From Acidobacteriota bacterium (GTDB lineage Bacteria > Acidobacteriota > Terriglobia > Terriglobales > Acidobacteriaceae): a stretch of 7,982 nt of DNA. Each line of letters opens with the position of its first letter. Within the stretch, counting starts at the first letter, position 1. The notes beneath the pieces are model-generated. The model saw nothing but the letters and a program-made list of their open reading frames with translations. It did not search any database and was not told where the DNA came from. Position numbers and translations under genes: made by a program. Positions 4,141 to 7,982 of this stretch are shown here, one piece after another. The stretch spans positions 1-7,982 of the forward strand of contig JAJZDO010000123.1 of NCBI GenBank assembly GCA_021805955.1, in the 5' to 3' direction.

Positions 4141-5286
4141 ATGCAGGCAACCTCTCTCAGCAACTGCGCAGTGATCGGCGATGCGTCCGATCCCCTGACG
4201 GCGAGAGAGCACACAGAAACTCCGCACGCATATCGCTCCGCCTTTCAACGCGACCGCGATCGCGTCATCCACGCGCGAGCGTTCCGAAGACTTGCAGGAA
4301 AAACGCAGGTTTTCACCCACCGCGACTCGGATCACTTCCGAAGCCGTCTGACCCACACCATTGAAGTTACGCAGATCGCCCGCACCATTGCGGCGGCGCT
4401 GGATCTGAATGAAGAGCTGGCCGAAACTCTGGCGTTGGTCCATGACATTGGACATCCTCCCTTCGGTCACGCCGGCGAACAAGCGCTGGACCGTCAACTG
4501 CAAGCGTACGGCCTGCACTTCGACCATAATTTGCATGCCTTGCGCATCGTTGAATATTTTGAGCAGCGTTATGCGGGATTTCGCGGACTAAATCTGACTT
4601 TGGCGGTACGTGAAGGCATCATCAAGCATTCGCGCGATTATTCACTGGCCGAGCATCCTGAGTTGCAACCGTACCTGCTGGATGAATTGCCGCCGCTGGA
4701 AGCCCAATTAATTGATCTGGCCGATGAGATCGCATATCTGACCGCGGATATGGACGATGGCGTGGAGGCGGAGATTCTCTCTGTGGAAAATCTGCGGCGC
4801 AATGTTTCTTTGTTTGAGGAATTTTATCGGAAGATGGAACAGCGATGTCCGGATGCCGCTCCGAAACTGCTATTCCACGAAGCACTGAAGAGAATGTTGA
4901 ATGCGCTGGTTAACGATCTGGTGGTGACTACACATCGCCGCGTGACAGAGGGTGGAATTCAATCGCTCACTACGGTCCGCCACGCGGGTCATAGACTGGT
5001 CGCGTTTTCTGAAGAGATGGAGCGGCGCCGCCACGAAGCCAAACAGTATCTTCTGCAGGAGCTTTATCACGCCACCTACCTGGAACGGGATCATGCCCTG
5101 GCGGAAGAAATTATCGCGGGACTCTTTCAATATTGGATGCGCAATCCGCTGGAACTACCCGCGAGTCACGAGACACAGATTGCCATCGAAGGCGCTCCGC
5201 GCGTGGTTGCCGACTACATTGCCGGCATGACGGACCAGTTCATTGAAGACCAGTGGCAACATGTGCAGGCGTCCCAGCGAAAATAG
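4141..5286 (+). CDS. dgt: HD-domain deoxyguanosinetriphosphate triphosphohydrolase-like protein
   Basis: This is a metal-dependent HD-superfamily hydrolase of the dGTPase/SAMHD1 type, which cleaves dNTPs to the deoxynucleoside and triphosphate in the cytosol. In 381 aa it carries the family's N-terminal RDRDRVIHARAFRRL-type stretch (37-51) and TQVF (55-58), then the HD metal ligands His72 (LTHT), His101-Asp102 (ALVHDIGHPPFGHAGE) and Asp195 (LADEIAY). The DHN at 128-130 and the C-terminal region (EEIIAGLF) also match the family. Length fits the dGTPase-like subgroup, shorter than E. coli Dgt; substrate preference cannot be read from sequence, so the symbol is by homology. The ATG at 4141 follows the TPR stop by 16 nt and has no clear Shine-Dalgarno, only a pyrimidine-rich tract, suggesting translational coupling or a different start; GTG at 4171 is a weaker in-frame alternative. 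The HD core is intact with either start. Confidence 0.93.
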   Translation: MQATSLSNCAVIGDASDPLTAREHTETPHAYRSAFQRDRDRVIHARAFRRLAGKTQVFTHRDSDHFRSRLTHTIEVTQIARTIAAALDLNEELAETLALVHDIGHPPFGHAGEQALDRQLQAYGLHFDHNLHALRIVEYFEQRYAGFRGLNLTLAVREGIIKHSRDYSLAEHPELQPYLLDELPPLEAQLIDLADEIAYLTADMDDGVEAEILSVENLRRNVSLFEEFYRKMEQRCPDAAPKLLFHEALKRMLNALVNDLVVTTHRRVTEGGIQSLTTVRHAGHRLVAFSEEMERRRHEAKQYLLQELYHATYLERDHALAEEIIAGLFQYWMRNPLELPASHETQIAIEGAPRVVADYIAGMTDQFIEDQWQHVQASQRK

Positions 5287-5302: not shown

Positions 5303-6217
5303 TCAATCCGGCCCCGTTCGCGCGCTGTCAAGCCATGCTGTACAGATCATGTCGCGCAACATGGTAGCGCCCGCGGCCAGTCGCTCTGCGGTAAAGCTGC
5401 GGGATGCCGCAGATCCATGGCCGTCGAACGCTCCTCGCTTGTCAAAGCGATAGACTTGGGCGACCTGCGCGTGCGTCGTCCACAAGTACAGCACAAAATT
5501 CTGAAACGGAGCATCCAGAACGCGCGCCGGTGGAATCAGCGGCGCAACATCCTGCGCGCGCTGAGTGTCGTGCACAAATTCTGTTTCAAACCGGCTGTGG
5601 ATGCCGCGCCGGCGGGTGAAGCGCTCAGGATTTCTTGACTCCACCCATCCGTTGAAATTGATTGTCGTGTGCAAGGGTTGCGAGCCGTCCCCGACGTAGT
5701 GGCCAAGACAGCCGATGTCGTACAAGACTGCTTGCTCTGCGCCGTAGGTGTCCCGATGCGCAGCGAGCAATGCCCGATAGTCGCGCATGTCCACCACCAG
5801 CCGCTCAAAGTCTTCATCGGCCTGCCATGGCAACAATCCTACGTTTTGCGGAACGAGTCGGTCGGCCAGATCCGGATGCAGACGATCCGCGGCTTTCAAA
5901 TCGTCGAGGAAACCGTAGCGTTGCGCGGGTAAGCCGCCGGGAGCGGCCATGTCCGCCAGTTCGAGATTCAGAAAATGCTCAGGAGCATCGGCAGCGCTGA
6001 GCTCCGGCTCCGAAGCGACCCGCCAACGGTCTGGCTCCGGCCCTAGATATTCAATCTCGTCCAGCGCCAGCGGCGTGCGCAGAAATGCAGGCATGTTTGC
6101 CGGCAACGTCTCCATCGCCACTCGATTGATGATTTTGTGACCATCCCGTCCCCAGCCGAAAGAATGCGGCGCGGCGAGACACAAAAAGAATGCCAGAACG
6201 AAGATGCCTAAGACCGA
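5303..6217 (-). other. Signal-peptide-like segment and zinc-dependent phospholipase C/S1-P1 nuclease domain of the fusion gene
   Basis: These enzymes are secreted tri-zinc phosphodiesterases acting on single-stranded nucleic acid or phospholipid. Residues 457-477 contain a strongly hydrophobic run (VLGIFVLAFFLCLAA) followed by Ser-Phe-Gly, a good signal peptidase site, and then Trp478. Using fusion numbering, the metal ligands expected of the family are all present: Trp478 (mature residue 1), His483 in WGRDGH, Asp519 in GPEPDRW, His537 in HFLNLE, His629-x3-Asp633-x5-His639 in GHYVGDGSQPLH, and His663-x3-Glu667 in IHSRFE. The last acid is Glu, as in Bacillus cereus phospholipase C, where P1 nuclease has Asp. 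Many bacterial proteins called S1/P1 nucleases look alike, so the substrate remains open. No ATG, GTG or well-placed TTG precedes this segment within the interdomain region, so it has no obvious start of its own. Confidence 0.82.
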
Positions 6218-7585
6218 CGGCAGACCTGACCGGGACGCCGCAAGACTACGGCTGCAATAGCGTTGCCACCATGCATCGAATTGTGCCAGCGAGCGCTCAC
6301 ATTGCAGTTTATGACGCTCGCGTTTGTCGCGAATCTTGCGTCGCAATTCTTCTTCCAGCGGTTCGAGCAAATCGAACGTAATGTTGACGGGTTGGAAGTG
6401 TGCGGGATCAGCATGGGTGATGTAATGCACCAGCGATCCCAGGCCGGTCGCTCTCGGGATTGGCTCCGGTTGCTCACCGCGTACCAGAGCTGCAACATGA
6501 AGGCCAGCTAACATTCCAGTGGCGATCGATTCCGTGTAGCCCTCGACGCCGGAGATTTGTCCCGCGAAAAGGATTTGCGGATGGTCGCGCAGTTGCAGCG
6601 TTTCGCTCAGCAATCGAGGCGCATTGATGTAGGTGTTGCGATGGATTTGGCCATAGCGTAGGAATTTCGCGTTTTCCAGGCCGGGGATCAGCCGCAAAAT
6701 CCGCGCTTGTTCGCTGTACTTTAAGTGATTCTGAAACCCAACCAGGTTATAGGAATCCGCCCGCAGATTTTCGCAGCGTAACTGCACCACCGCCCACGGC
6801 GTTTTCCCTGTTCTAGGATCGCGCAGGCCTACCGGCTTCATTGGGCCGAAGCGCGGCGTATCGCGGCCACGCCGAGCAAGTTCTTCAATGGGCAGGCAGC
6901 CTTCAAAATAAGTAAGTTTCTCCCATTCTTTTTCTTGCACGGATTCCGCTGCAACAAGGGCGTCGTAGAAACGGTCATACTCTTCCGCCGTCATCGGGCA
7001 GTTGATATAGTCTGCTGTGCCCTTGTCCCAACGTGCAGCCATGTAGACGCGGTCCATGTCGATAGACTCCGCATCTACGATGGGGCTGATGGAATCGTAA
7101 AACGCAAGGTGTTCGCTGCCGGTCAGTCGAGAGATCGCCTCAGACAGCGCCGGAGAAGTCAGCGGCCCGGAAGCAACGACGGTCCATCCATCCGCAGGAT
7201 CGAGCGTCGTCACTTCCTCGCGATGCACGGCAATGCGCGGCTCCGCTGCGATGGCGTCGGCGACGAGCCGGGAAAATGCCACGCGGTCCACGGCCAATGC
7301 ATGGCCGGCGGGCACGGCGGCGGCATCCGCAGCCTGCAACAGAACCGATCCTGCGAGGCGCATTTCCTGCTTCAACAGCCAGGGAGCCGTGTGCTCGCTT
7401 TCAGACTTGAGAGAATTGGAGCAGACCAGCTCGGCGAAATCGGCAGTCCGATGAGCTTCTGTCGAACGTACGGGACGCATCTCGTACAGATCGACATAGC
7501 AACCGAGGCGGGCCGCCTGCAGCGCTGCCTCCGGTCCGGCAAGTCCAGCGCCGAGTACGCGAATACGTGGAATGTTGTTTGTCAT
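5303..7585 (-). CDS. trmFO: Fusion: TrmFO tRNA (uracil-54-C5)-methyltransferase + zinc-dependent phospholipase C/S1-P1 nuclease domain
   Basis: One 760-codon frame encodes two enzymes. Residues 1-445 are TrmFO, a cytosolic FAD enzyme that makes m5U54 (ribothymidine) in the tRNA T-loop using 5,10-methylene-tetrahydrofolate. They show the dinucleotide-binding VLGAGLAGPEAA (10-21), YEMRP (34-38), LVCSNSLKSE (53-62), the nucleophile-type Cys230 in YFEGCLPIEELA, GPMKPVGLRDP (248-257), and GQISGVEGYTESIATG (342-357). TrmFO homologues are about 435-445 aa, so this half is full length. Residues 457-477 resemble a signal peptide, and 478-760 are a zinc-dependent phospholipase C/S1-P1 nuclease-type domain. 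The start is ATG 7585; a TTG lies just before it at 7588. There is no well-spaced Shine-Dalgarno: AAGAGGA lies 19 nt upstream inside a hairpin. The gene is convergent with dgt and divergent from waaA. A one-piece product, internal initiation or an artefact are all possible; the identity of both halves is firm. Confidence 0.93.
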   Translation of the reverse strand: MTNNIPRIRVLGAGLAGPEAALQAARLGCYVDLYEMRPVRSTEAHRTADFAELVCSNSLKSESEHTAPWLLKQEMRLAGSVLLQAADAAAVPAGHALAVDRVAFSRLVADAIAAEPRIAVHREEVTTLDPADGWTVVASGPLTSPALSEAISRLTGSEHLAFYDSISPIVDAESIDMDRVYMAARWDKGTADYINCPMTAEEYDRFYDALVAAESVQEKEWEKLTYFEGCLPIEELARRGRDTPRFGPMKPVGLRDPRTGKTPWAVVQLRCENLRADSYNLVGFQNHLKYSEQARILRLIPGLENAKFLRYGQIHRNTYINAPRLLSETLQLRDHPQILFAGQISGVEGYTESIATGMLAGLHVAALVRGEQPEPIPRATGLGSLVHYITHADPAHFQPVNITFDLLEPLEEELRRKIRDKRERHKLQCERSLAQFDAWWQRYCSRSLAASRSGLPSVLGIFVLAFFLCLAAPHSFGWGRDGHKIINRVAMETLPANMPAFLRTPLALDEIEYLGPEPDRWRVASEPELSAADAPEHFLNLELADMAAPGGLPAQRYGFLDDLKAADRLHPDLADRLVPQNVGLLPWQADEDFERLVVDMRDYRALLAAHRDTYGAEQAVLYDIGCLGHYVGDGSQPLHTTINFNGWVESRNPERFTRRRGIHSRFETEFVHDTQRAQDVAPLIPPARVLDAPFQNFVLYLWTTHAQVAQVYRFDKRGAFDGHGSAASRSFTAERLAAGATMLRDMICTAWLDSARTGPD
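6251..7585 (-). other. trmFO: TrmFO domain of the fusion gene
   Basis: This is the 5' portion, residues 1-445. The TrmFO-like sequence ends in the usual charged helix (RKIRDKRERHKL, 416-427) and FDAWW (436-440). Five codons near this end (Trp439, Trp440, Gln441, Tyr443, Cys444) are each one substitution from a stop codon, which fits an ancestral trmFO stop in this area. The exact boundary is an estimate, within about 10 residues. Confidence 0.8.
6344..6355 (-). promoter_or_regulatory. Possible internal start (TTG) with Shine-Dalgarno-like sequence
   Basis: Read on the minus strand, GGAAGAAGAATTG places a purine-rich GGAAGAAG about 2-5 nt before an in-frame TTG at 6346 (Leu414 of the fusion). 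It is the nearest canonical in-frame start codon upstream of the signal-like segment. Initiation here would give the hydrolase a long basic n-region of about 43 residues. The purine run also simply encodes Glu-Glu-Glu, so this may be coincidence. Confidence 0.15.
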
Positions 7586-7759
7586 CAAAAGAGGACTTCG
7601 ATCTTCCTCTTATGGTAACGGCAGCGGAGGGCGCACCGCTCGGACGGCACGGCGCAACCAGTGCAGCAATGACGAAGAGTAAGGTAGTAAAGAGGTTCGT
7701 TGTCAGGGATTCAGCGCACAGCGTAGTTTTTTGTCGTGCGTTTAAAAATTTACTTACCC
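7586..7759. promoter_or_regulatory. Divergent intergenic region between trmFO and waaA
   Basis: This 174-nt region must carry the start signals of both genes unless waaA is transcribed from elsewhere. Toward waaA, TTGTCA (7700-7705) matches five of six -35 bases, and TAGTTT (7724-7729, 18-nt spacer) is a poor -10. Toward trmFO, CTGACA (7706 down to 7701) also matches five of six -35 bases, with CTTACT 17 nt further as a poor -10. The two -35 candidates overlap on opposite strands. Both are weak. No protein-like frame is seen here. Confidence 0.25.
7589..7611 (-). repeat. 7-bp inverted repeat in the trmFO leader
   Basis: AAGAGGA (7589-7595) and TCCTCTT (7605-7611) are perfectly complementary around a 9-nt loop and lie 3 nt upstream of the trmFO ATG. 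On the trmFO transcript the 5' arm is AAGAGGA, the best Shine-Dalgarno-like sequence there, but it is 19 nt from the ATG and would be paired in the hairpin. This could lower or regulate translation, or be chance. Confidence 0.4.
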
Positions 7760-7982
7760 ATGATGCTGCTCTACAGTCTGGCCCTGGTGGCCGCCATTGT
7801 TCTCGCTTCGCCGTATTGGCTGCTCCGCATGGCGTGGAGTGGGCGCTACCGACACGGATTGGGTCAGCGGCTAGGTCTGATTTCTCAAGGCCTTCGTAGA
7901 TTTGTCGGGCAGCGATCCACCGTCTGGGTCCATGCAGTCTCGGTCGGAGAAGTCATCGCCGCAAGCCGTCTGATCGAAATGC
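7760..7982 (+). CDS. waaA: 3-deoxy-D-manno-octulosonic acid (Kdo) transferase, N-terminal part
   Basis: The gene runs off the right edge; 74 complete codons are visible. WaaA (KdtA) transfers Kdo from CMP-Kdo to the lipid A precursor at the cytoplasmic face of the inner membrane, an essential step for lipopolysaccharide core assembly. The protein begins MMLLYSLALVAAIVLASPYW, a single N-terminal membrane anchor ending in SPYWLLRM, followed by the typical GRYRHGLGQRLGL (28-40) and WVHAVSVGEVIAA (56-68). Glu64 in HAVSVGE corresponds to the family's catalytic glutamate. These motifs in this order are characteristic of bacterial Kdo transferases (GT30). Two adjacent ATGs (7760 and 7763) are possible starts, and neither has a clear Shine-Dalgarno. 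The gene is divergent from trmFO. The nucleotide-sugar-binding C-terminal domain lies outside the window, so completeness cannot be judged. Confidence 0.93.
   Translation, partial: MMLLYSLALVAAIVLASPYWLLRMAWSGRYRHGLGQRLGLISQGLRRFVGQRSTVWVHAVSVGEVIAASRLIEM

Follow-up and report, generated by a model that had tools for sequence, protein, structure and literature searches.

Gene organization of the locus

We have analyzed by computation a stretch of 7,982 nucleotides from contig JAJZDO010000123.1 of an Acidobacteriota bacterium (the window from here on), covering the architecture of its main gene, conservation, selection, the number of origins, the fold of the hydrolase and the presence of cleavage-type sites and of conserved internal starts. 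On the minus strand a single open reading frame joins a complete TrmFO, the folate/FAD-dependent tRNA m5U54 methyltransferase, to a zinc hydrolase of the S1/P1-phospholipase C (PLC) type that is complete as well, with a signal-peptide-like segment in between. The features are the following:

5303..7585, minus strand: fusion ORF, 760 codons plus stop
6266..7585, minus strand: TrmFO half, residues 1–440
6155..6265, minus strand: linker with the internal signal-peptide-like segment, residues 441–477
6170..6214, minus strand: most hydrophobic 15 residues, 458–472 (mean Kyte-Doolittle 2.93)
6154..6155, minus strand: predicted signal peptidase I cut between Gly477 and Trp478 (S-F-G/W)
5306..6154, minus strand: S1/P1-PLC-type zinc hydrolase half, residues 478–760
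4141..5286, plus strand: dGTPase-like HD protein, convergent, ancestral neighbor of the hydrolase (by synteny)
7736..7981, plus strand: start of the divergent neighbor of trmFO (by ORF and synteny cluster), which we take to be kdtA

No Rfam match was found within the window. Upstream of trmFO, two motifs on the minus strand, GCCGTTACCAT and about TTTACTACCTTACTCTTCGTC (window 7612–7622 and 7671–7692), recur slightly changed in genomes G000, G006 and G009 of the survey described below, while the remainder of the spacer differs by eye. They are possibly a shared promoter or regulator site.

The TrmFO half scores above the curated equivalog cut-offs of NF003739 (632.6 vs. 262) and TIGR00137 (576.9 vs. 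428.65) and could be aligned to 3g5q. By its sequence it is a full-length homologue of TrmFO that shares the FAD motif (GAGLAG, residues 12–17) and both cysteines, i.e., Cys55, aligned to Thermus Cys51, and Cys230, presumably the second catalytic one. TrmFO is normally a stand-alone protein, whereas here its chain continues through an export signal to another enzyme. A TrmFO of Mycoplasma bovis, which has neither signal nor transmembrane segment, was reported in both cytoplasm and membrane (PMC9630594), a situation different from that of a TrmFO half linked to a signal.

The hydrolase half has the fold of the S1/P1-PLC family in the predicted structure, and in the structural alignment residue 1 of the model pairs with the first mature residue of the solved relatives. 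The spacing of the zinc ligands is that of SmNuc1 (W478, H483; H629, D633, H639; H663, E667). The last ligand is Glu as in PC-PLC, while SmNuc1 has Asp instead. With 22.8 bits against 29.5 the fused hydrolase misses the gathering score of PF02265, a cut-off that the stand-alone relatives P0050 (30.4) and P0117 (32.6) exceed. Of the 49 fusions described below, 4 have a precomputed PF02265 assignment. Therefore, we regard this half, from its fold and its ligands, as a divergent relative of the S1/P1-PLC proteins and claim no membership of PF02265. Its substrate class could be nucleic acid or phospholipid, the PC-PLC-like Glu ligand and the Pfam name S1/P1 being neither of them decisive. Members of this superfamily normally carry their own N-terminal signal peptide, whereas here the hydrolase is made as a C-terminal extension of a cytosolic enzyme. 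A full-length AlphaFold2 model of the fusion was too poor to use (pLDDT 59.5), perhaps due to an alignment that was shallow over TrmFO.

Distribution and conservation of the fusion

A homologue search with residues 430–760 as query found 143 proteins, 120 of them listed. Both halves were present in 49 of the listed ones (P0001–P0049, P0001 being the window's own), with PF01134 present and an alignment spanning 99–100% of the hydrolase query; one of them, P0018, is a fragment of 516 residues. The other 71 of the 120 listed are stand-alone hydrolases. A TonB_C domain (PF03544) was found at the C terminus of 69 of these 71 relatives (P0050–P0120), which is in itself an unusual ending for an S1/P1-type hydrolase. 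All nine zinc-ligand residues, the Trp included, are invariant in the 49 fusions when compared with the ligand list of SmNuc1. Cys230 is kept in the 48 fusions that cover this position and the FAD motif in the 46 of the 49 aligned that cover that region. The preliminary description of this DNA had argued from such residues that neither half is decaying.

We have also searched 10 genomes of the genus. The fusion was found in one frame in G000, G006, G008 and G009, and in G007 contig ends interrupt it, one contig containing the junction, which is in frame. Relatives with separate genes do exist: the TrmFO and hydrolase genes are on different contigs in G003 and G005, and in G002 a TrmFO fragment lies at a contig end, the hydrolase being on a different contig. 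Only the hydrolase was matched in G001 (73% complete) and only TrmFO in G004. The window could have been a lone exception among relatives with separate genes, a case against the fusion that had been foreseen from the start, and it is not, as G006, G008 and G009 show. In the four genomes with the one-frame fusion no second match to either half was found but one (33–35%, residues 269–379), over a stretch that also matches MnmG models.

At the level of the family, the hydrolase was matched at E ≤ 1e-30 in 221 of 398 genomes, and among the matches listed a fusion was recognized only in five members of the genus. For this survey 27 of 30 loci were opened (4 fusions and 23 stand-alone), and the remaining rows were judged by frame length, among them a 654-residue hydrolase frame in G284. 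The named fusion carriers among 80 loci (L097, L098 and L102) are uncultured acidobacterial assemblies. Some long frames were considered as additional fusions and rejected. The long TrmFO frames of G042, G048, G051 and G060 have their added length mostly upstream of the FAD motif (that of G042 also has about 100 extra residues downstream) and are read as frame overhang in GC-rich DNA. In the long hydrolase frames L081 (G028) and L088 (G216) the Trp is preceded by an ATG at a distance of 28 and 25 codons, respectively, so that they are read as stand-alone.

The assembly of the window's genome is fragmented (418 contigs), and the fusion might then come from an assembly or sequencing error that merged two genes. 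Against this, the same architecture appears in 49 protein clusters, which come from several sources, three other genomes of the genus have it in one frame, and the reciprocal junction (see below) is present elsewhere in the genome. This recurrence together with the reciprocal junction rules out an assembly error, whose probability we regard as negligible. The in-frame fusion claimed in the preliminary description is genuine and no artefact. The frame is in fact always kept: the distance between the QCER motif of TrmFO and the Trp is 47–52 residues in the 49 fusions, a count by eye gave 44 for G008, and the length of the linker differs by whole codons.

Origin by reciprocal rearrangement and later loss

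The comparison of gene order points to how the fusion was formed. In G003, G005 and G021, which belongs to an outgroup genus, the ancestral order is found, with the presumed kdtA divergent from trmFO and der convergent with it; trmFO and der are directly adjacent in G003 and have 1–2.4 kb between them in G005 and G021. The ancestral order around the hydrolase, found in G001, G002, G003, G005 and G021, has dhs divergent from it and the dGTPase gene convergent (der and dhs were named by Pfam). In the fusion genomes G000, G006, G007 and G008, trmFO runs into the hydrolase, which faces the dGTPase gene, and the contig of G009 ends just past the fusion. We searched six genomes for dhs and found it adjoining der in five (G000, G004, G006, G008 and G009), while in the sixth, G007, dhs was not found. 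Since both new junctions are seen, the event was a reciprocal exchange, in which trmFO/der and dhs/hydrolase became trmFO/hydrolase and dhs/der.

The protein divergently beside the hydrolase in unfused relatives belongs to the deoxyhypusine synthase family (PF01916, 312 bits for the L046 copy), with copies at L046:10561–11775 and L045:5939–7156. Deoxyhypusine synthase is best known from eukaryotes and archaea.

In the hydrolase tree, the halves from 53 fusion rows group as a single clade, apart from 9 stand-alone rows (support 100/98), and in the TrmFO tree G004 falls within the fusion clade (branch support 99/94). L012, L013 and L018, in which no TrmFO motif was found, and L087, with no Trp motif, were left out of the trees, and P0003, P0018 and P0029, without the N-terminal motif, are absent from the TrmFO tree. 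G004 carries trmFO, the dGTPase gene, TPR, purH and, further along the same 141-kb contig, dhs and der, the hydrolase being gone; the match to TrmFO residues 1–440 ends 56 bases from the dGTPase match. Its TrmFO frame has 471 codons and acquired a short tail, which runs over the end of the dGTPase frame. G004 thus shows the fusion undone (L194:2950–3260). One hydrolase clade, with G004 nested among the fusions and showing the rearranged order, indicates a single origin, followed by a loss at least once. Repeated fusion is not supported, the sole unfused TrmFO within the fusion clade being that of G004, with its rearranged order and dhs/der junction.

The loss in G004 means that the hydrolase is dispensable in that lineage. 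This would suit a frozen accident, with a working TrmFO and a hydrolase half that is tolerated and of little use, as would the values of dN/dS (Nei-Gojobori, 10 pairs of five genomes, G007 partly covered), which are higher for the hydrolase (0.09–0.17) than for TrmFO (0.04–0.08). Residues 448–477, between the halves, gave 0.20–0.53. However, both halves are under purifying selection, and the values of the hydrolase together with its nine invariant ligands indicate selection on this half in the other genomes. We consider a frozen accident very improbable.

Predicted export signal and cleavage site

The signal and its cleavage site were judged by hydropathy and the −3/−1 rule. The signal-peptide-like hydrophobic segment that had been proposed to lie between the halves is present in all 49 fusions. 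It starts 20–24 residues before the Trp, its best 15-residue mean hydropathy is 2.32–3.25, and the net charge of the 20 residues before the hydrophobic core goes from 0 to +3, being 0 in 6 of the 49. Position −1 is always Ala or Gly, and position −3 is Ser in 45, Ala in 3 and Cys in 1. The 71 listed stand-alone relatives have Gly or Ala at −1 without exception and Ser (64), Leu (5) or Cys (2) at −3, the five with Leu fitting the rule poorly. A signal-peptidase-type site directly before Trp478 is conserved in 49 of 49 fusions.

This position would matter for the chemistry of the enzyme. In S1 nuclease, the zinc cluster is coordinated by the main chain of the Trp with which the mature protein begins. 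The zinc cluster of SmNuc1 is bound by eight side chains and by the main chain of Trp27, its N-terminal residue (PMC11705217), and in Bacillus cereus PC-PLC Trp1 binds Zn3 (PMC10420013). As in these solved relatives the Trp ligand is exposed by removal of the signal peptide, the fused hydrolase should work only once it is cut free. As long as the chain is uncut, the amino group of this Trp is not free, and the site would be expected to stay incomplete until the cut.

If cleavage failed, the uninterrupted frame with its single hydrophobic segment would give an intact bifunctional protein of the inner membrane, its TrmFO half cytosolic and its hydrolase half exposed on the periplasmic side. The use of the mature N-terminal Trp as zinc ligand in the solved relatives argues against this, as does the −3/−1 site that all the fusions share with the stand-alone relatives, and we regard a permanently intact chain as quite unlikely. 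The preliminary description had offered two outcomes, tethering of TrmFO to the membrane or release of the hydrolase. Release by cleavage is favored on the same two grounds, and what stands of the tether is that TrmFO would still keep its C-terminal anchor.

Internal translation starts

A normal secreted hydrolase could also be made from an internal start before the hydrophobic segment, the fused chain being then a by-product. In-frame ATG, GTG or TTG codons 20–29 positions before the Trp are indeed found in G006 (ATG at −29, also GTG at −19), G007 (GTG at −25, also TTG at −45), G008 (TTG at −23, another TTG at −58) and G009 (ATG at −20). In G008 a GGAG six bases before the TTG at −23 makes a weak internal start possible, but the GGAG of G007 overlaps the GTG itself. 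In the window, the 60 codons that precede the Trp contain a single in-frame ATG, GTG or TTG, a TTG located within the hydrophobic core, and nothing resembling a Shine-Dalgarno sequence was found in the stretch scanned. The position is different in every genome, and 3 of the 49 fusion proteins have a Met between −45 and −21 (GTG and TTG being invisible at the protein level). The stand-alone relatives, in contrast, have an ATG 23–36 codons before the Trp in all 23 loci opened; among the five fusions only G006 has one in that range. We found no internal start codon conserved across the fusions examined and consider this alternative unlikely. The hydrolase's own start codon was lost in most fusions examined and, presumably, its own promoter was lost too.

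Proposed mechanism and significance

We think it probable that one precursor is processed by signal peptidase into a membrane-anchored TrmFO on the cytosolic face and a periplasmic hydrolase. TrmFO would be made first by the ribosomes and fold in the cytosol. The signal-peptide-like segment would then enter the Sec translocon with its N side remaining cytosolic, and the hydrolase half would be exported. Signal peptidase I would cut at S-F-G/W, leaving Trp478 as the new N terminus, whose main chain would complete the three-zinc site. The products would be a zinc phosphoesterase-type hydrolase, periplasmic or exported further, and a TrmFO that its C-terminal hydrophobic tail would anchor to the inner face of the inner membrane, unless this tail is later trimmed. 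The hydrolase would be made in a fixed proportion to TrmFO. We infer translocation, cleavage, anchoring and the activity of both products, and one messenger giving two enzymes in two compartments, as first proposed, is the best-supported reading. We lean slightly towards the complete version, a polyprotein with two unrelated products for different compartments, in which signal peptidase both releases and activates the hydrolase, TrmFO stays anchored, the ratio is fixed by a common start codon and the hydrolase has no independent route.

No TrmFO-hydrolase fusion was found described in the open-access literature searched, in agreement with the claim that none was known. There is a partial precedent in Bradyrhizobium fbcH, where one ORF for cytochromes b and c1 contains an internal signal sequence and gives two products after signal peptidase. 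Both of these are membrane parts of one complex, whereas here the two enzymes are unrelated and would be separated by compartment. The names in use hide the hydrolase half: 16 of the 49 fusions are named by a source, and the name is always that of the tRNA methyltransferase alone, a warning for annotation.

The partners in a gene fusion usually share a pathway or a compartment. Here a cytosolic tRNA enzyme has been joined to one of the exported type, and the fusion has persisted, with selection acting on both of its halves. The fixed ratio or the location of the two enzymes may be useful or may be merely tolerated. The zinc chemistry of the N-terminal Trp makes cleavage a testable requirement, and these bacteria would offer a natural test of the way in which Sec and signal peptidase deal with an internal signal that follows a folded enzyme of 440 residues.
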